Shown in pieces: positions 34,451 through 44,792 of a stretch of 64,000 nt of DNA (within the stretch, counting starts at the first letter, position 1; the number at the start of each line of letters is the position of its first letter). The notes beneath the pieces are model-generated. The model was given only the letters and a program-made list of their open reading frames with translations. It had not been told where the DNA came from and made no database searches. The position numbers and the translations under genes are program-made. Origin of the DNA: a bacterium (lineage in GTDB: Bacteria > SZUA-79 > Acidulodesulfobacterales > Acidulodesulfobacteraceae); NCBI GenBank assembly GCA_021798875.1, contig JAJZBN010000007.1, positions 1 through 64,000 on the forward strand, in the 5' to 3' direction.

Positions 34451-34870
34451 ATGCCTTATAAAGCAGATACCGTAGCTTTTTCCGGTCTTTTGCAGTGGGA
34501 GGACGTGGAAAAACTCATAGAAGACGTTAAAAACTCCGGCTCGAAATGGCATTACGTCTATACCCAGACGGACGACGATAAGGGCGAAATGGATGCAAAA
34601 GCTTCGGCGGAATTTTTAAAGGAAAGAATGGACGAAATAAAAAATCTGGATAAGATTTGCGGATGGTTTTACGTCCACACGAAAGACGAGCCGTCTATAA
34701 TAAAAATTTATCATCCGAAAATGTCCGGCGGCGGCTGTTCTTTAACGACGCCCCCGCCATGGATTATCGTTTCCAAGGAAAAACCGGAAGATATAGCCGA
34801 CCTGGAATCTTACAAACCAGTAATAAAACCGGCGAAAAAAGGCCTGTTTAAACGTATCTTCGTTATTTAA
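34451..34870 (+). CDS. Uncharacterised small protein, 139 aa
   Basis: A soluble protein with a good AGGAGAGAG ribosome site 5-10 bp before the ATG. It has a central segment DKICGWFYVHTKDEPSIIKIYHP, a Gly-rich stretch SGGGCSLTTPPPW and a basic C-terminus (KPAKKGLFKRIFVI). I do not recognise a family. It is convergent with the large restriction-modification gene (71 bp between stops) and divergent from the membrane protein gene. Its codon use matches the chromosome core. Confidence 0.6.
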   Translation: MPYKADTVAFSGLLQWEDVEKLIEDVKNSGSKWHYVYTQTDDDKGEMDAKASAEFLKERMDEIKNLDKICGWFYVHTKDEPSIIKIYHPKMSGGGCSLTTPPPWIIVSKEKPEDIADLESYKPVIKPAKKGLFKRIFVI

Positions 34871-34941: not shown

Positions 34942-37900
34942 TTATACGACGGAAATGAACTCCGCCACTATTTTAAAATCGTTTTCGGATGCGTTTTCCA
35001 ATATTATGTCTTCAAAGTCTTTATTATCCGGAGAAAGAATGATTCTTTTATGCGACCAAAGTCCGTCTTCGCCCGAATATTCCTTTTCGCTGCGGTATCT
35101 TTTTACGGTAAACTTTTGATTCGTTTCGTGGTCGGAAACTAACCTCGATTCCGCAAGAACAACTTTGCCGTCGCGCGAACCTTGCGGCTCAAAACGGAAT
35201 ATGCAGTAACTGCCGTCCGGTATGGTCGGCTCCATCGATTTTCCGACGACTTTCGCTATAAACATATCGGGATATAATTTATGCAAATAATTTAAATTCT
35301 TAACGCTTTTCCAGCCGAGCCGCTCGACGTACTGTTCGCCGCTAAACTTTGAAGCGGCGGCTTCCAAAGAATACACCGGAAGATATTCTACGAATTTCTG
35401 CTCTTCCGGAACGTCGTCGTCGGGAATTACGTCAAACTTTGCAGGGAAATCGATTACGTTAGACTTTACGGCCTTATCGTCATATTTTTCAAGACTTTCA
35501 ACCGCCGATTCGGATTCGACTATTTTATATTTTGAAATTTCTTTTATTATATTTACCGATTTTATGCTAACGTTAATTATTTTTTTAATAAGGTTTACGA
35601 TATATTTGTAATCGTTAATTTCTTCCAAATATATGTTCAGGTCGTTTTTTATAAGGCTGTTTTTATCGATATTTACTTGATACCTGTTCATTATCCATTC
35701 TATAGCCGATCTTCCGTTAACGATATAATCGTAAGATTCTAAAGGTATATTGGATAAAGTTACGAATTCATTGTATATTATCACCGTTTTATCTTTATCC
35801 TTGCCCTTTCTGCCGAATTTCATTTTCTCTATTCGGTAAAGCTCTTTTTCTGGTAAATCTTTTGGATTTTTAGATATTGTTTCGGTAACCGGATACGGTT
35901 CTATATTTTCGTAATGAATATGCAGATTTGCCAATTCCCTGCCGTATTTGCTTATATCTTTAAATTCTGCGATAAACGGAATGCGAGGAAGCATTTTAGT
36001 CAAATCGTTGGCAAACGTTTTTTTATAATCTTCATTATGCAATATGCCGTATATATAATAAAAAATATCCTCTTTATTTATGCTTGCGTCATGGTACTTA
36101 TCCCGTATTTCTTTTAAGAATTCATCCGAAATGTTGTCTTTTTTAGTATATTTAATTTCTTCCTGCAGAGGTTCGGAATGAAATAAACTTTGTTGTGAAT
36201 TATTCGTATCTTCGGTTTTTTCATAGTAGTAAAGTGGAAAGGCTTGACTATTGAATAATATTTGCAAATCTGGAACATTATTTACAATAACAGATGAAAA
36301 AGTTTTATCGCCGATACCGTTTACGCAGATTAATAAATTATCCGAATTTTTATCCGGAAATATTTTAGGCATCTGAGAAATTTCTTCATTTAATTCACGC
36401 GTTCCGTTATAATAAAGCCATTGTTTGCAAAACGGTCTATGAACGGCAGCAACTATATCTTGATTATTAAATTCTAATTTTTTTTGACTTTTCAATCTGT
36501 TTTTAAGTCCTCTTGTCCAGCTAATTTTAGTCGGGTCGTTATTTACGAAACTGTCTATATTTTTGGGTATATTTCCTGCATTGCCGTAGCGGTCAACCTC
36601 GCCGTTATAAAACTCAATCATCGATTTTACGTTATTTTCAAGCTTTTCTTTTGAAAAGTTGTAGCACCATGAATCTCTCTGTGTTTTTAAACCGCCTGAA
36701 TAAATTTTAAATATAGTTTTACTTTCTAAACTTGTTTTATCGCCCATAGGAATAAATTCGGAAAATACGGGATTTCTTTTTTTTATCCAGTCATGGGATT
36801 CGTTGGGAATAATTTCCTGCCATTTTATAGCGGTTATGTCTTTTTTAGAAGAAATATAATTTAATTTTTCGTCAGTTTTTAATTTTTCCGGTATTTCATA
36901 ATAGAATATTTTATTATTTTTTGCTTTATCCGGATTTTTTACAAGCAAAGTTATAGCAACTCCGGTTCCACATTTGTTTCCGAAAACGTTTTCGCCTTCT
37001 TCCGCGTTATAAGCCCTGAAATTTCCTTTAAGGTTAAAACAGTAAACGGACGAAAACTCGTCCAACAGACTCTTGCGGAAACCGTCAAGGGCTTTGCCGT
37101 TAATATAAGAGTTATTGCTTATGTAGCATATTACTCCTTTATCTTTAATTCTGTCCGTCGCCCACCTGAAAGCCCTTATGTATGAATCGTGAAGACTTTG
37201 CTTGAGCTGTGCAGTAGAATTTTTAACGTATGTATTTACTATTTTTTCGTCCAATTTTGGATATTTGTCGGCTTTATTGTCGTCGTTAGCATTGTCCTGC
37301 TTTGCCGAATAAGGCGGATTGCCTATAATAACCCTTATATCTTGCCGCTTCTGTTTTAACGCCCTTTTGCTGTTTCTTTTCAACGGATAAAATGTTTCTT
37401 CGTCTGTGACTGATATAACCATTTGCTTTGCCTGCGACTTATATTCCTCTTCAAGCATCTGAAAAGTATCTGTTAAGACTATACCTGTAAACGGCTCGTA
37501 TTTTCCGGTTATATTTTTATACGTTTCTTCTATATTTATGGCGGCTATATAATATGCCAGAAGCATAATTTCGTTTGCGTGCAGTTCTTTTTTGTATTTA
37601 TTTTCTAATTTATCCGGAGCTATTATGCCGTTATGAAGCAGTCTCGTTATAAAAGTGCCTGTTCCGGTAAAAGGATCAAGTATATGAACGTCTTCGTTTT
37701 CCAATTTTGTTCCGAATTCTTCATTTAATACATGCTCTACGCTGTTTACTATAAAGTCCACTATTTCTACAGGCGTATATACTATTCCGTATTTATCGGA
37801 CGATTTGGGATTTGCGAGAGAAAAGAAATTATCGTAAAGTTCTATTATTACCTTTTGTTTGTCTTCCGGATTTTTAATCGCGCTTACTCTTTTCTCAACC

Positions 37901-40269
37901 GATTCGTAAAAACGCTCCAATTTTTTGGTTTCGTTTTTAAGCCCTTTTTCGTCCAATAAATTTATTATTTTATCCATTGCAAGAGAAATAGGGTTTATTT
38001 TTACAAAGTCGGAATCGAATAATGTTTCAAAAACCGGTTTGGTAATAAGGTGCTGGGATAGCATAATAATAGCGTCTTCTTCGGATATTACGGGACTTAT
38101 GTTCTGCCTTAATTCGTCTAAAAAAATATCGAACTCTTTTCTGTCGTTTGCGTTCTGTTTTAAAATTTCGTTTATTCTTGCAATATGGACGTTCATTATG
38201 TCTATTATATCTTTCGTCCAATTTAACAGATATTCCTTATCGCCGCATTTTTCTACTATTTTTGCCATTATGGCGTCTTTCCACATCTTTATCTTATCTT
38301 CGGGAAAGTCGAAATTAAGCTGTTCCTTTGGAATGCTTACGCCCGTTCCTATTATATGTATCCTGTCGCTTTCTCCGTTATATTTTAACTGATTTATTGT
38401 TCTGTCCATTTGATCGTCGTGGGCACGAAGACTTTCAAGCGTATTCCAAACTATATTATAGTTTGTTTCCTTTAAAACATCCTCGGGCGCTTTATTAATA
38501 GGTATGGCAACCGGCAATATAATATATCCGAATTTTTTTCCTTCCGATTTTCTCATAGCGCGTCCTACTGCCTGAATAATATCTATTTCGGAATCTTTAG
38601 GATTTAAAAATATTACCGCATCAAGCGCCGGAATATCGACTCCTTCTGACAAACACCTTGCATTGGATAATATTCTGCATTCGCCCTCAGGTACCGGTTC
38701 TTTCAGCCAGCCGATACGCTCATTTCTTTCTATAATATTGGTGGTGCCGTCTATATGCTCTGCTTCGCATTTTAATTCGCCTAAATTCTGGGTTATTTTT
38801 TTAAATTCTTTTGCGATTTTTTTAGAAATTTCAATTTTGCCGGCAAACATAACCGCTCTTTTCATTGGATTAGTATCCGTAAATATATTGGAATCGTCTA
38901 TGCTTTTTTTGGCTAACCCGTTGTAACAGCCCGTTAATTTAGATAAATCGCCTAAGTTTAAAGTACTGTCTTTTTTCGCAAGTTCCGACTGCATATCTTC
39001 GTTAATAAAATCTTGCGACACCATATAAACCATAACCTGATAATCGGATAATAGGTCAAGCTCTACCGCTTTGGAAAAACTTAATTTGTATATAGTTTCT
39101 CCGTATATTTTAGAATCTTCATCCATAGAACAAAGCACTATGTCTTTTTTATTAGCTTTAGTCTTAACGTTTGAAGTGTAAATCCGAGGCGTTGCCGTCA
39201 TATACATCCGCTTTTTCGCTTTAATCTTGTCGTTGTCGTGTATCATGACAAAGTTAGAATCGTCTTTTATTGGACCCTTAATAACTCCCGTAGTTCTGTG
39301 GGCTTCATCGCAAATTACGAAATCGAATTCGGGCAGTCCTTTTGACTGCGCTTTCTGAATTACGTCAAGCGACTGATACGTGGAAAATATTACGGTTCTG
39401 CCGTTTTTATTGCCGCTTTTAAAATTTTCCAATAATTTATCGGCGTCGGTAGTAGCGGGAAATGAAAGTTCATGCAGTCTTAAATCTTCGTCTTTGCCTA
39501 TTTTAACGTCGGAACATACCGCATATGAATTTATGGGGTTTTCGGCTTCATAATTCCATTCTTTTAAAGTTTGGGATAAAAGCGATATAGACGGCACTAA
39601 AAACAGTATATTGGACTGCTCCGGCGTTATAGCTTCCGCTATTTTAAGCGAAGTATATGTCTTTCCGGTGCCGCACGCCATAATCAGCTTTCCTCTGTCG
39701 TGATATTTAAAATATTCGACGGCTTTTTCCAGAGCCTCTTTCTGATGAGGCCTTATGGTTTTTTTGGGCTTTACTTCAAGTTTTTCGATTTTATTTATAT
39801 CAAATTGCAGCCAATCGATAGAACTGTTTTCCAGATCTTCCAAAGTTATCAGGCTGACGGGAACGGTCTGCTCGCTAAGAGATTCGCTAACGTTATCGCT
39901 TATACTGTTTGTGGTAACTACCAATAACCTGTCGGTAAAAATTTTTTTGCCGGATTCGGTGAAAAAAGAATCTATATCTTCTTTGACTAATTTATGTCCT
40001 TCTTCGTAAACCTTACACTGAATAGCGCAAAATCTTTTCTCTCCTTCGCTAAATTCCGCTACGAGGTCAACGCCTTTATCCTTTTCATTTAAACCATATT
40101 CAGAATGCGATATAACAAATTCTTTAAACGTCCATACATTTTTATATAAATTTTTGTATATATTGTCAGTTTTTAAAAAATTCAGCGTTAATGTTTCAAA
40201 AGCCGTTCCCAAATCTCTTATGTTAGTATACTCGGCTCTTAAATTGCTTAAAACTGTCTTTATGGACAT
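34942..40269 (-). CDS. Type ISP-like restriction-modification enzyme with C-terminal S24/LexA-like domain
   Basis: A 1775-residue single-chain enzyme. Residues about 15-130 form an Mrr-like nuclease (D68, Q84-x-K86). Helicase motifs are ACGTGKT (198-204), CDEAH (near 321), MTATPR and QAVGRAMRK. The adenine methyltransferase has motif I DPFTGTGTF (near 868) and NPPY (near 984), followed by a target-recognition region. This order matches LlaGI/LlaBIII-type enzymes. Unlike those, the C-terminal 130 or so residues form a LexA/UmuD-like peptidase fold with a Ser near 1678 (VVGKSMEPTIPDG) and a Lys near 1722 (FTVKRY), both in catalytic-dyad context. No HTH precedes it. A GGAG site stands before the ATG. 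It is the main intact defence gene of the island. Confidence 0.88.
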   Translation of the reverse strand: MSIKTVLSNLRAEYTNIRDLGTAFETLTLNFLKTDNIYKNLYKNVWTFKEFVISHSEYGLNEKDKGVDLVAEFSEGEKRFCAIQCKVYEEGHKLVKEDIDSFFTESGKKIFTDRLLVVTTNSISDNVSESLSEQTVPVSLITLEDLENSSIDWLQFDINKIEKLEVKPKKTIRPHQKEALEKAVEYFKYHDRGKLIMACGTGKTYTSLKIAEAITPEQSNILFLVPSISLLSQTLKEWNYEAENPINSYAVCSDVKIGKDEDLRLHELSFPATTDADKLLENFKSGNKNGRTVIFSTYQSLDVIQKAQSKGLPEFDFVICDEAHRTTGVIKGPIKDDSNFVMIHDNDKIKAKKRMYMTATPRIYTSNVKTKANKKDIVLCSMDEDSKIYGETIYKLSFSKAVELDLLSDYQVMVYMVSQDFINEDMQSELAKKDSTLNLGDLSKLTGCYNGLAKKSIDDSNIFTDTNPMKRAVMFAGKIEISKKIAKEFKKITQNLGELKCEAEHIDGTTNIIERNERIGWLKEPVPEGECRILSNARCLSEGVDIPALDAVIFLNPKDSEIDIIQAVGRAMRKSEGKKFGYIILPVAIPINKAPEDVLKETNYNIVWNTLESLRAHDDQMDRTINQLKYNGESDRIHIIGTGVSIPKEQLNFDFPEDKIKMWKDAIMAKIVEKCGDKEYLLNWTKDIIDIMNVHIARINEILKQNANDRKEFDIFLDELRQNISPVISEEDAIIMLSQHLITKPVFETLFDSDFVKINPISLAMDKIINLLDEKGLKNETKKLERFYESVEKRVSAIKNPEDKQKVIIELYDNFFSLANPKSSDKYGIVYTPVEIVDFIVNSVEHVLNEEFGTKLENEDVHILDPFTGTGTFITRLLHNGIIAPDKLENKYKKELHANEIMLLAYYIAAINIEETYKNITGKYEPFTGIVLTDTFQMLEEEYKSQAKQMVISVTDEETFYPLKRNSKRALKQKRQDIRVIIGNPPYSAKQDNANDDNKADKYPKLDEKIVNTYVKNSTAQLKQSLHDSYIRAFRWATDRIKDKGVICYISNNSYINGKALDGFRKSLLDEFSSVYCFNLKGNFRAYNAEEGENVFGNKCGTGVAITLLVKNPDKAKNNKIFYYEIPEKLKTDEKLNYISSKKDITAIKWQEIIPNESHDWIKKRNPVFSEFIPMGDKTSLESKTIFKIYSGGLKTQRDSWCYNFSKEKLENNVKSMIEFYNGEVDRYGNAGNIPKNIDSFVNNDPTKISWTRGLKNRLKSQKKLEFNNQDIVAAVHRPFCKQWLYYNGTRELNEEISQMPKIFPDKNSDNLLICVNGIGDKTFSSVIVNNVPDLQILFNSQAFPLYYYEKTEDTNNSQQSLFHSEPLQEEIKYTKKDNISDEFLKEIRDKYHDASINKEDIFYYIYGILHNEDYKKTFANDLTKMLPRIPFIAEFKDISKYGRELANLHIHYENIEPYPVTETISKNPKDLPEKELYRIEKMKFGRKGKDKDKTVIIYNEFVTLSNIPLESYDYIVNGRSAIEWIMNRYQVNIDKNSLIKNDLNIYLEEINDYKYIVNLIKKIINVSIKSVNIIKEISKYKIVESESAVESLEKYDDKAVKSNVIDFPAKFDVIPDDDVPEEQKFVEYLPVYSLEAAASKFSGEQYVERLGWKSVKNLNYLHKLYPDMFIAKVVGKSMEPTIPDGSYCIFRFEPQGSRDGKVVLAESRLVSDHETNQKFTVKRYRSEKEYSGEDGLWSHKRIILSPDNKDFEDIILENASENDFKIVAEFISVV

Positions 40270-40554
40270 AAAAACACTCCGTTTAACGTATTTTAATTAA
40301 CACTATTAAGCACTGATTAATTATTGAATTAGCTTTATTTTTAACATATGAATATTATATTAACAGTTTTTTGAAATAATAAAAACGCTTGATTTGCTTT
40401 TGTTGTTAATATTTGCATTGTGCATTTTTTGCACAATGCTTTTTCATAGAGATACAAAAATAGACTGTTTTTATTTGAACTGTTTCCAAATTGTAAACAG
40501 TTCAGCAGCCTATTTTTCGGTTTTATTTCGCCAGATACCAAACTTTCGGGATAG
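40270..40554. other. Upstream region of the RM gene with possible repeat remnant
   Basis: No intact gene. On the minus strand near 40370-40450 one frame reads SIVQKMHNANINNKSK, which resembles the start of the RhuM core, so this may be a further rhuM remnant. The rest is AT-rich and would carry the promoter of the large gene. Confidence 0.35.
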
Positions 40555-40740
40555 CATAGAATAACCTTTTACAACATGCTATTTTAATACTGTAGTTGCA
40601 CGCCGGCGAAATTTAGCAGCTTTTTTCAATTTACTTTGTAACCGACCGATAAAATAACATCTGAATTATAAGATTCTATTTCTCGTTTTACTATCCGATT
40701 GCCTTCATTTTTAACTGTTGCAATTTTTGCAACAGTTGAG
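40555..40740 (-). pseudogene. rhuM fragment C (central part, with stops)
   Basis: The minus strand encodes TVAKIATVKNEGNRIVKREI, then ESYNSDVILSVGYKVN, a stop codon and KKAAKFRRRATTVLK. It is clearly homologous base by base to 42961-43150 of the longer rhuM copy but interrupted by stops. It begins at the vapC stop codon, so the vapBC pair separates it from the N-terminal fragment at 41508-41797. Confidence 0.85.
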
Positions 40741-40741
40741 C

Positions 40742-41125
40742 TTATCTCCCTAAACTTAAAAACTCTTCGCTAAGCATGGGGTAATGCTTTTTATTTAATG
40801 TGAATAATTTGAAATTGTAATTTTTTGCCGCAGCTCCTATTATTGCATCTGCAAGCTCTATTTTATGGGACTTTCTATATTTATTTATATATATACCTGC
40901 TAATTCGCCTATTCGTTTATTTATATCTAAAAAATAAAAACTTTCTATAAGTTCACGGGTTTTTCTTTCCTCTTTGTCCGTCATTCCCGAGTAAACCTCA
41001 ACAACCTGAATGGGCGTTATATATATTTTGCCTGATGTTTCTTCGGATAAGCGTTTTGCGTCAGCCACTATCGTTTCTTTACCTCTTAATATCCAAATGA
41101 TAATATCCGTATCAAAAATTATCAA
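40742..41125 (-). CDS. vapC: VapC-type PIN-domain toxin
   Basis: A 127-residue PIN-domain ribonuclease. Acidic metal ligands are in place: Asp5 (MIIFDTDIIIW), Glu43 (VVEVYSG) and Asp93 (IELADAIIGAAA). VapC toxins cut tRNA or rRNA when not bound by the antitoxin. Its start overlaps the antitoxin gene by 14 bp, the usual coupling. The pair lies between two rhuM fragments, which suggests it arrived as a cassette. Confidence 0.9.
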   Translation of the reverse strand: MIIFDTDIIIWILRGKETIVADAKRLSEETSGKIYITPIQVVEVYSGMTDKEERKTRELIESFYFLDINKRIGELAGIYINKYRKSHKIELADAIIGAAAKNYNFKLFTLNKKHYPMLSEEFLSLGR

Positions 41126-41507: not shown

Positions 41508-41797
41508 TGAGTTTGATAAGTTTTGCCATCTGTCGCAGTATGTGCAAATTTTGCACATACTTCTTTGGAATCAAGTTCACCAATCCTCAGTATATTTCTT
41601 ATATGTTTAGTTACAACTATCCTATCTACTTCAAATAAATCTGCAATCTGGGTTTGAGTTGCCCATATAGTTTCATTTTGCCAATCCCTCCTTAATTCGA
41701 TTGCTCCGCTTTCCGACTGATATGATATATAGCTATTTCATTTTTAATATTTTCCATAAATTCTTATTCCAAATTCAATCCTATTTTAGCTGCTGGT
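41508..41797 (-). pseudogene. rhuM fragment A with hsdM tail
   Basis: From 41797 the minus strand encodes the last residues of an HsdM copy (AAKIGLNLE, stop), then ATGGAAAATATT at 41755, the rhuM start. An extra 5 bp in the ATATC run breaks the frame. Beyond it are ETIWATQTQIADLFEVDR and CAKFAHTATDGKTYQTQF, then a stop. The layout repeats the intact junction at 43290-43380, so this is a duplicated and decayed allele with a different middle sequence. Confidence 0.85.
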
Positions 41798-41907
41798 ATA
41801 CTATATAGGCTATATCGGAAATATAAACCGCCAAACGGCTTATTTCTTCTTTTTATCGGCTAAATTTTATAGATAGCACCGATAATATTTCATCTATCAA
41901 TTTCTTT
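41798..41907. other. Intergenic region, no feature seen
   Basis: AT-rich sequence between the rhuM/hsdM remnant and the MNT promoter; nothing recognisable. Confidence 0.4.
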
Positions 41908-42013: not shown

Positions 42014-42343
42014 ATGCAAAGAAATAAATCGGTTCCTTTTATTAAAGTAAGATTGAACGATTACGAAGTAGAAGCTATTAAACATTTTGCAGATAATATA
42101 TTTAATAATCCTTCGGTATATATATTCGGTTCGCGGGCAGATTTATCATCGAAAGGGGGAGATATAGATATTTATATAGAAACGAGCGACGACTCTGAAG
42201 AAATCTTCGATAAAAAAATTAATTTTTTAACCGAACTTACAAAAAAAATAGGGGAACAGAAAATAGATGTCGTTATAAAAGGAAAGAATTCAAAAGATAA
42301 AGATATTTTTAATATTGCAAAAAAAAATGGGGTAATGATTTGA
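42014..42343 (+). CDS. MNT-type nucleotidyltransferase antitoxin
   Basis: A 109-residue minimal nucleotidyltransferase. The active-site pattern is YIFGSRADLSSKGGDIDIYI: GSR (39-41) and Asp50-x-Asp52. In MNT-HEPN systems this protein neutralises the HEPN toxin, in known cases by adenylylating it. A TAGAGGAA ribosome site precedes the ATG. The stop overlaps the HEPN start. The last 57 bp of the gene are duplicated at 45011-45066. Confidence 0.88.
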   Translation: MQRNKSVPFIKVRLNDYEVEAIKHFADNIFNNPSVYIFGSRADLSSKGGDIDIYIETSDDSEEIFDKKINFLTELTKKIGEQKIDVVIKGKNSKDKDIFNIAKKNGVMI

Positions 42344-42777
42344 TAGAACTCAAATATATTTTAAACGTTATAGACAAACAGTTTTCTAAAATAGAATTAA
42401 TAGTTTCGGAAATAAAAGACTTTTTGCCTCTTAAAAACGAGGATATGGAAGATATAAACAAAATCAAAACGATTGATTCTTTTATATACAGATTCGGTAA
42501 AATTCAAGATATTATGGGGGAAAAACTATTTCCCGCATTTCTTGAGCATTTGCAGGAATATAATACGTCAATGTCGTTATTGGATGTTTTACATAAGCTT
42601 GAGAAATTAAGATTGCTGAATACCGATGAATGGATAAAAATAAGGCAGATAAGAAATACGATGACGCATGAATATCCAGATAATGATGATGAAATTATTG
42701 CAACGATAAGTTCCGCCCTTGATTATTTTGAAATAATGAAAAATATTTATAAATCGATAAAACAAAAATTAGGCTAA
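42340..42777 (+). CDS. HEPN-domain toxin
   Basis: A 145-residue all-helical HEPN protein. The RNase motif is R105-N-x3-H110 (IRNTMTHEYP). The start is TTG, overlapping the MNT stop, so translation is coupled. It is expected to be an RNA-cutting toxin held by the MNT partner. Its end touches the truncated end of rhuM copy B on the other strand, so the cassette probably removed the rhuM 3' part. Confidence 0.85.
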   Translation: MIELKYILNVIDKQFSKIELIVSEIKDFLPLKNEDMEDINKIKTIDSFIYRFGKIQDIMGEKLFPAFLEHLQEYNTSMSLLDVLHKLEKLRLLNTDEWIKIRQIRNTMTHEYPDNDDEIIATISSALDYFEIMKNIYKSIKQKLG

Positions 42778-43338: not shown

Positions 43339-43677
43339 TTATTCCAAATTTAGCCCTATTTTAGCTAATTGTATTTTTATCTCTTCGTTAAGCCTTTTTT
43401 CTTCCGCCATCTGTTTCGACAGTTCCGCCGTAAGCCGTTTCATCTTTTCTTCAAATAATTCGTCGTCTTCTTCCGTTTCTTTAGTGCCGACGTATCTGCC
43501 GGGCGTTAAAATATAGCCCTGCTTTTTTATTTCTTCAGTATTTACCGCCTTGCAAAATCCTGCAATATCCTCGTATTTTCCTCCTTCGCCCCTGAAAGCA
43601 TGGTAAGTACCCGCGATTTTATTAATTTCTTCATCGGTAAGCTCCCTGTGTCTTCTGTCTATCATAACGCCCATCAA
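43339..43677 (-). pseudogene. HsdM C-terminal fragment (Type I methyltransferase)
   Basis: A 112-codon frame matching only the C-terminus of HsdM: IDRRHRELTDEEINKIAGTY, then FCKAVNTEEI, ILTPGRYVGTKETEEDDELF and a helical tail ending KIGLNLE. The methyltransferase motifs (NPPF, SAM site) are absent, so it is a remnant, not an enzyme. It directly precedes rhuM copy B, as hsdM precedes rhuM in intact loci. No hsdR or hsdS is seen. Confidence 0.88.
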
Positions 43678-43708: not shown

Positions 43709-44401
43709 TTAATTTTTAAGCTTATTTTCTAAATTATTTTTTGGTAATTTTTTGGTAATTAATTTTTCTAAATCGGAAAGATCTTCTAAAAATCTATCTT
43801 TTAATATATCATCTTCTTTATATGCGCTATAATATCTATTAAACAGCAAATCAATATTTTTATATATTTCCTTTAGAAATTCTAACTGGGAAGGATTAAG
43901 ACTGTCCGTATAATTTTTACCCATAAATATAATGTCATGCAAATCTCTTGCTGCGGTTCTATTTTCAAAAGCAGACCTTTTAAAATCAAACAAAAAAGGT
44001 AATTTATAAATTCGAATATTGTTTACTATATCCGTTTTAGATTCATGATATCCGCTTCGAAACGACATTTCTATCTTAAGATTTTCTTTTTTGTCAGTCT
44101 TATATTCTCCGTAAGTTATTATCATTTTTTTTACGGTATCGGTATGTTTTTTGGTATGTATATCAAGTAAAATCGGTCTATTTTCACCGTGATAGTAAGT
44201 AAAAGCTTTGTTGATAACATATTCAAGGTTGACGTCTTTATTTGCATCAAAATCTAAATCCGTGGACATCCTGTCAAGACCGTAACCTAATAATAAAGCT
44301 GTTCCGCCTTTTAAAGCAAGCGGCAGAGCGTTTTTTAAAATTGTCTCGGATATTGTTCTCATTATTTTTAAGTGGGTTTCGTTATCTTTACATAAAAGCA
44401 T
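43709..44401 (-). CDS. AbiEii/AbiGii-type nucleotidyltransferase toxin
   Basis: A 230-residue DUF1814-type nucleotidyltransferase. The core is LKGGTALLLGYGLDRMSTDLDFD, with Gly-Gly-Thr (32-34) and Asp48/Asp50 as likely metal ligands. AbiEii proteins are toxins of type IV-like abortive infection pairs. It overlaps the upstream gene by 14 bp. A Lys/Asn-rich tail follows the domain. Phage-defence activity is inferred from family. Confidence 0.82.
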   Translation of the reverse strand: MLLCKDNETHLKIMRTISETILKNALPLALKGGTALLLGYGLDRMSTDLDFDANKDVNLEYVINKAFTYYHGENRPILLDIHTKKHTDTVKKMIITYGEYKTDKKENLKIEMSFRSGYHESKTDIVNNIRIYKLPFLFDFKRSAFENRTAARDLHDIIFMGKNYTDSLNPSQLEFLKEIYKNIDLLFNRYYSAYKEDDILKDRFLEDLSDLEKLITKKLPKNNLENKLKN

Positions 44402-44792
44402 TTTTCCACCTTAATAGCATGTCTGTTTCTTTTTTATCTGCATGCTTAATCATAATATCTAAATATTTAACGAACTCTTCAATATCTTTATCTTCCAGAA
44501 GATAATCTTTAAATATAATATGATCGGGGTAATGTTTTAATACAAAAATATTTTGGTACAACATATCGGCAATCGCTCTTGCAGGAGATGCGCATTTTAC
44601 AGACTCTATATTTTTGCCTATTGAGTTAAAAAATTTAGTACAGTCATATAAGCCCGATAAACCGAATAAATATTGCGTATCGGTATAATCTACTCCGCTT
44701 ACCGACCAGTTATCCGCACTTATAACCCCGGAAAGATGCCAATCCGCTCCGCTTATATTTAAAGCCCCCATGCCTGTAATATATTTGTTCAT
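44388..44792 (-). CDS. Probable partner (antitoxin) of the AbiEii-like protein
   Basis: A 134-residue soluble protein of no family I can name. It starts MNKYITGMGALNISGADWHL and has no clear winged-helix AbiEi domain. It is translationally coupled to the AbiEii-like gene by a 14-bp overlap, and small upstream partners of such toxins are usually antitoxins. The role is inferred from position only. The start has a poor ribosome site. Confidence 0.6.
   Translation of the reverse strand: MNKYITGMGALNISGADWHLSGVISADNWSVSGVDYTDTQYLFGLSGLYDCTKFFNSIGKNIESVKCASPARAIADMLYQNIFVLKHYPDHIIFKDYLLEDKDIEEFVKYLDIMIKHADKKETDMLLRWKNAFM

Follow-up and report, generated by a model that had tools for sequence, protein, structure and literature searches.

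The stretch of DNA analysed (the window, 64,000 nucleotides) holds an open reading frame at 34942-40269 on the minus strand that runs without interruption for 1775 aa. Its parts and the features around it, in nucleotide positions of the window and residues (aa) of the predicted product, hereafter the ISP-S24 protein, are as follows.

34942-40269, minus strand: whole gene, a predicted Type ISP restriction-modification enzyme with a C-terminal S24 domain, 1775 aa
39787-40173, minus strand: Mrr-type nuclease domain, aa 33-161 (Pfam Mrr_cat_2, 7e-37)
38548-39762, minus strand: SF2 helicase-like motor, aa 170-574 (Pfam ResIII and Helicase_C)
37864-38232, minus strand: ISP coupler domain, aa 680-802 (Pfam ISP_coupler, 9e-40)
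37309-37677, minus strand: core motifs of an N6-adenine methyltransferase (motifs and LlaBIII alignment)
35590-36714, minus strand: Type ISP C-terminal specificity domain, aa 1186-1560 (Pfam Type_ISP_C, 9e-105)
35401-35517, minus strand: linker between enzyme and tail, aa ~1585-1623, modelled mostly at low confidence (pLDDT about 48-63, model residues 1-30)
34945-35400, minus strand: S24 (LexA/UmuD-like) tail, aa 1624-1775 (Pfam, conservation, AlphaFold/Foldseek, hhalign)
35350-35367, minus strand: candidate self-cleavage site LEAAA|S, aa 1635-1640 (motif, LexA pattern, profile alignment)
35236-35238, minus strand: predicted catalytic Ser1678 (GKSMEP), invariant in 84/84 relatives
35101-35103, minus strand: predicted catalytic Lys1723 (TVKRY), invariant in 84/84 relatives
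43339-43677, minus strand: remnant of an HsdM C-terminus, sharing 89% identity with the intact L043 HsdM across 111 aa
42778-43332, minus strand: RhuM gene, with two broken RhuM copies at 41694-41799 and 40556-40739
40415-40439, no strand: perfect 10-bp inverted repeat (GCATTGTGC...GCACAATGC)

The nuclease motif GVDL...QCK (aa 66-86) is intact, as are the motifs of the motor (ACGTGKT at 198, DEAH at 321, TATP at 358 and QAVGRAMR at 566), within which Pfam bounds ResIII to 170-362 and Helicase_C to 466-574, and those of the methyltransferase, from DPFTGTGTF (865-873) through NPPY (984-987). The alignment with LlaBIII (PDB 4xqk) spans residues 18-1584, LlaGI (PDB 5ffj) aligns to most of the same region, and PADLOC recognised the body as a restriction enzyme-methyltransferase with a match ending at about 1588. 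Judged by its sequence, the gene product is a complete Type ISP restriction-modification enzyme of the LlaGI/LlaBIII kind with predicted activity, and the Pfam and PDB matches bear out the LlaGI-type order of nuclease, helicase and methyltransferase proposed in an earlier sequence-only reading of this DNA. Since the LlaBIII alignment ends at 1584, the S24 part comes as a C-terminal addition to a complete enzyme.

Pfam Peptidase_S24 (PF00717) matches aa 1666-1770 of this extra piece with an E-value of 8.6e-9, above the curated cut-off. The AlphaFold2 model of the tail has a mean pLDDT of 87, with a flexible linker ahead of the domain, and comparison of the model with solved structures by Foldseek returned LexA, lambda CI and UmuD' as the best matches (E down to 3.7e-6, probability 1.00), several of the top structures being RecA-bound LexA or CI. 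A search of PDB sequences with a small tail profile gave no match, whereas the fold search did, and hhalign related the tail to a LexA profile at 98.4% (E 1e-14). These E-values, together with the 84 conserved relatives, exclude chance as the origin of the S24 match. The earlier proposal of a Type ISP enzyme joined to a LexA/UmuD-like domain is thus upheld by Pfam, the LlaBIII alignment, profile comparison and AlphaFold/Foldseek, the predicted structure being an S24 fold of high confidence. The serine that it placed near 1678 is S1678, the lysine placed near 1722 is in fact K1723, and both residues are present in all 84 relatives. By sequence and predicted fold, then, the tail is a serine-lysine peptidase domain of the LexA/CI/UmuD type. 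It is under purifying selection, with dN/dS of about 0.11-0.26 in most close pairs and 0.40 in one very close pair, similar to the values of the enzyme bodies.

The fusion is real and old within the lineage. Among 99 relatives the ISP-S24 protein occurs with 89% (G002, G023), 88% (G014) and 70% (G021) identity and, more distantly, with about 49-51% (G007, G026, G009); one named relative, L048, is Candidatus Acididesulfobacter. An assembly artefact is ruled out, since independent genomes of the genus and family carry ISP-S24 at 49-89% identity. Untailed ISP enzymes exist as well: G026 has one tailed and one untailed, that of G029 is untailed, and the untailed homologues L032 and L015 (1576-1595 aa) share the core of the tailed enzyme.

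The earlier reading considered the tail on this one Type ISP enzyme, but it is not confined to that type: defence enzymes of many unrelated kinds carry it. Among the 99 relatives, other open frames match only the final ~185 residues, with up to 85-94% identity. By Pfam and PADLOC these frames encode tailed HsdR (L038, L039, L036, L030), an HsdR-like protein (L037), a Type III Res (L040), a ResIII-like protein (L029), a DruE-like helicase with MZB (L028) and a Schlafen-group-3 helicase (L033). When 84,980 species genomes were scanned with a profile of the tail, 397 related stretches came up, and the 80 best were kept. In every open frame recovered the tail lies at or very near the protein C-terminus, and the bodies fall into HsdR family A (29), HsdR family B (11), Schlafen group 3 (10), ISP (9), Res-like (6), Type III Res (4) and DruE/MZB (3), with smaller clusters of Type_ISP_C methyltransferases of IIG-like kind (3) and Eco57I/DrmMI-like proteins (2), alongside a single additional Res that has RE_endonuc, and some short or truncated pieces. 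The IIG-like and DrmMI-like methyltransferases have no SF2 motor, which rules out a tail limited to helicases. One of the former (L102:3387-8429) has a stretch of an IS200-like transposase (Y1_Tnp) inside its frame.

The hosts of the tail span many phyla. In a broad sample of 356 genomes outside the family, 14 have a strong tail match (E < 1e-30), for the most part on enzymes of the kinds already named. In the loci inspected, tailed enzymes lie among genes of their own systems: HsdM and HsdS adjoin the tailed HsdR of L043 and L049, a gene for an N6_N4 methyltransferase adjoins the tailed hosts of L104 and L072, and an SNF2/DEAD helicase and an MZB protein adjoin the DrmMI-like proteins. The tail can occur more than once in a genome: G057, G010 and G300 each have this kind of tail on two or three distinct defence enzymes, which in G057 are an HsdR, a Res-like protein and a DruE-like helicase. 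The S24 part of three CI-type repressors of HTH_3-S24 architecture (L101, L156, L159) also belongs to the tail family, and these repressors may be the source of the enzyme tails or be derived from them. Short tail pieces that lack an enzyme body were seen in L046 (1199-1645), L070, L071 and L093, some of them beside the 139-aa gene that the window also has; they are probably remnants left after loss of the body or by contig breaks. Spread of the tail by plasmids or phages was rejected, as the plasmid and phage collections searched hold almost none of it, namely a single plasmid record and a phage repressor of weak similarity that is present as two records; three viral contigs have a tail match.

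The tail has been exchanged between unrelated defence enzymes. The maximum-likelihood tree of tails does not follow host type: HsdR family A requires 12 label changes, at least 6 of them forced by well-supported branches, and HsdR family B requires 10, at least 5 of them so forced. The tails of ISP, HsdR and Res proteins of the window lineage cluster together, and within the genus the ISP and HsdR tails are ~90% identical. At the DNA level the final 510 nt of the ISP gene share 90% identity with the end of the L042 gene for HsdR; the bodies of the two proteins have no relation to each other.

The window itself may bear traces of such an exchange: by its surroundings the ISP gene sits in a degraded Type I restriction locus. 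The HsdM remnant, which represents the C-terminal quarter of an HsdM, is followed by RhuM and its fragments and then by the ISP gene; in G014, what is left of HsdS sits immediately upstream of the ISP gene, and the downstream flanking DNA is common to the window locus and the L043 locus that bears HsdR. Most simply, one enzyme body was exchanged for another at this site and the tail was kept, as a functional unit or as a recombination site. The homology at DNA level between the ISP unit and its sister loci ends exactly at 40439, and the inverted repeat at 40415-40439 may for this reason be a recombination border or a terminator. As the border of a repeated cassette it was discarded, there being no other copies in the window. 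The locus offers nothing usable for SOS control of the ISP gene through a palindrome or promoter. Beside the tail, here and in several genomes of the genus, lies a gene for a 139-aa protein (34451-34870, plus strand) with no Pfam family above cut-off, and DNA of the flank that carries it matches in 14 of the 16 genus genomes. Genes of toxin-antitoxin-like kind surround the restriction gene as a small defence island: one for a PIN protein (40742-41125, minus strand), an MNT/HEPN-like pair (42014-42777, plus strand) and an AbiEii-like gene with its neighbour (43709-44792, minus strand).

The sequence-only reading had offered two places at which the peptidase might cut. The first, Ser-Gly (1643-1644), was ruled out, as relatives do not conserve it. 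The second, AAAS, proved to be part of the conserved LEAAA|S: 84 aligned tails share the loop consensus P-x-x-x-L-x-A-A-A-(G/T/S)-x-F, in which the putative P1 is Ala in 82 tails and Cys in the other 2, which read Cys|Gly, and the putative P1' is Gly in 51, Thr in 17 and Ser in 16. The ISP-S24 protein, with AAA|S, thus has Ser rather than Gly at P1'. Another 12 tails, one of them incomplete, agree with the dyad and the site pattern. LexA proteins retrieved with the same tool read (V/I)-A-A|G-x-P, and the spacing from P1' to the serine is 38 in the ISP-S24 protein, about 35 in most tails and 32-37 in the LexA set. A gap-free profile alignment places the Ala-Gly of LexA one residue earlier than the motif does, so that the candidate bond is A1639|S1640 or A1638|A1639. 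In the AlphaFold2 model LEAAAS forms a short helix, whereas the LexA control run gave an extended strand just ahead of Ala-Gly. The conserved site of Ala|Gly type makes self-cleavage by the tail more likely, and we consider cleavage of some kind probable.

We infer the trigger, the cleavage and the outcome of tail action, including its direction (off or on), and prefer the following model. In unstressed cells the tail would be inert. Upon build-up of single-stranded DNA, RecA filaments (probably; or another stress signal) would prompt the tail to sever the chain of which it is part at LEAAA|S, and the restriction body would be freed with the new C-terminus -LEAAA, a possible ClpXP degron. The freed enzyme would be destroyed or crippled, and chromosomal DNA left unmodified during repair would be spared, a built-in form of restriction alleviation. 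Across tails the body would end in -L-x-A-A-A (or -A-V-A) after such a cut. Cleaved E. coli LexA has a similar end, -VAA, as has the ssrA tag, -LAA, and proteases of the ClpXP type can recognise such ends. The alanines at P3-P1 may be kept for cleavage alone, so that their conservation gives the degron no independent support. One and the same tail fits ISP, HsdR, Res, Schlafen-type and methyltransferase bodies, and its action must consequently not depend on the structure of the body; a C-terminal degron, being independent of that structure, would explain one tail on motors, nucleases and methyltransferases alike.

Precedents for the separate steps have been described. That DNA damage leads to alleviation of restriction has been known for a long time (PMC12707154, PMC11109961), degradation of EcoKI HsdR by ClpXP when host DNA is unmodified is an established form of alleviation, for which a degron was sought but not found (PMC4231737), and cleavage of LexA uncovers latent signals recognised by ClpX (PMC10584840). 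These LexA and EcoKI precedents, together with the presence of recA, clpX and LexA-type genes in the same genome as ISP-S24, are among the grounds for preferring damage-triggered cleavage followed by destruction. It counts against the model that the documented alleviation of EcoKI proceeds with no S24 tail and does not require SOS induction (PMC11109961). So do the Ser at the putative P1' of the ISP-S24 protein, the one-residue disagreement over the bond, the helix modelled for LEAAAS and the existence of S24 repressors that answer to signals other than RecA (PMC7101444). In its full form, stress-triggered self-cleavage followed by destruction of the enzyme, we hold the model tentatively, as one that is slightly more apt to be wrong than right.

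The same self-cleavage anatomy would equally fit a tail that acts as an inhibitory or tethering module, whose cleavage upon damage or infection turns the enzyme on and arms restriction at times when RecA filaments rise because of phage or damaged DNA. UmuD, processed to UmuD', is a precedent, and some tails reside on CI-like HTH repressors, in which cleavage derepresses genes. It is hard, however, to picture one tail inhibiting hosts of such unrelated architecture, a nuclease or motor activated during damage to the host's own DNA would be dangerous, and untailed homologues (L032, L015) have the same core; we regard arming by cleavage as unlikely.

The tail may alternatively be a structural module that does not cleave and that pairs two copies of the enzyme, or the enzyme and a partner. 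The S24 domains of LexA and CI dimerise, Type ISP enzymes require two converging copies for DNA cleavage, and the helical prediction for LEAAAS would suit such a role. Dimerisation alone, however, needs neither the Ser, the Lys nor the A|(G/S/T) site kept in 84 tails, and the hosts differ in stoichiometry, which makes a purely structural function rather improbable.

A tail that cleaves itself upon a trigger other than RecA, be it another protein, a phage product or a metabolic signal, has precedents in IrvR and ImmA-cleaved repressors and in S24 repressors under RecA-independent control (PMC7101444), and several tailed genus genomes gave no LexA match, which speaks for it. It appears the least probable of the three alternatives, as RecA is universal and the usual co-protease for the S24 fold, and several of the best structural matches are RecA-bound LexA or CI. 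The genus genomes G002-G006, G008, G009 and G015 gave no LexA match, although several carry tailed enzymes; these genomes are incomplete drafts, and LexA may be patchy in the window genus.

Beyond damage-triggered destruction of the single enzyme, one may speculate, with more reserve than for that model, that one portable self-cleaving LexA-like domain, whose cleavage exposes a degron, serves as a general switch of immunity, handed around among Type I, Type ISP, Type III, DruE-, DrmMI- and Schlafen-type enzymes and making their lifetime or activity depend on the DNA-damage signal. If so, an SOS circuit would act directly on enzymes and not via transcription, and through the tail DNA damage would be coupled to immune enzymes in a simple, physical way. 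This bears on the old question of how restriction enzymes spare their own chromosome during DNA repair. Because one tail sits on many enzyme types, one set of experiments would probe the control of several defence systems. The tail would, if the proposal is true, also supply a ready-made damage-responsive degron for tools and a genome marker for further damage-controlled defence proteins.

A full-text search of open-licence papers, beyond which an earlier description is possible, found no account of restriction or defence enzymes joined to an S24 or LexA-like domain; fusions of this sort are surely annotated in databases. The Type ISP enzyme and the S24 domain are each known, and what we did not find described is their combination and the exchangeable tail across immune systems. 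LlaGI and LlaBIII (PDB 5ffj, 4xqk) share with the ISP-S24 protein a single chain of Mrr nuclease, SF2 motor, coupler, N6-methyltransferase and specificity domain, but both end where the S24 tail starts. With LexA, lambda CI and UmuD the tail shares the predicted fold, the Ser-Lys dyad and a candidate cleavage site of the form Ala/Cys|small residue, 35-38 residues before the Ser; in these proteins, however, the domain follows a small DNA-binding domain, whereas the tail follows enzymes of ~700-1800 aa, and its loop, L-x-A-A-A|(G/T/S)-x-F, departs from that of LexA. The tailed HsdR, Type III Res, Schlafen-group-3, DruE-like and DrmMI-like proteins have the same C-terminal tail, with up to 90% identity to that in the window, on entirely different bodies. 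ClpXP-dependent alleviation of EcoKI (PMC4231737, PMC12707154) resembles the tailed enzymes in proposed purpose, which is to remove a restriction motor once the host's own DNA lacks modification or is damaged; an S24 tail is absent from EcoKI, whereas in the tailed enzymes the signal domain would be built in.
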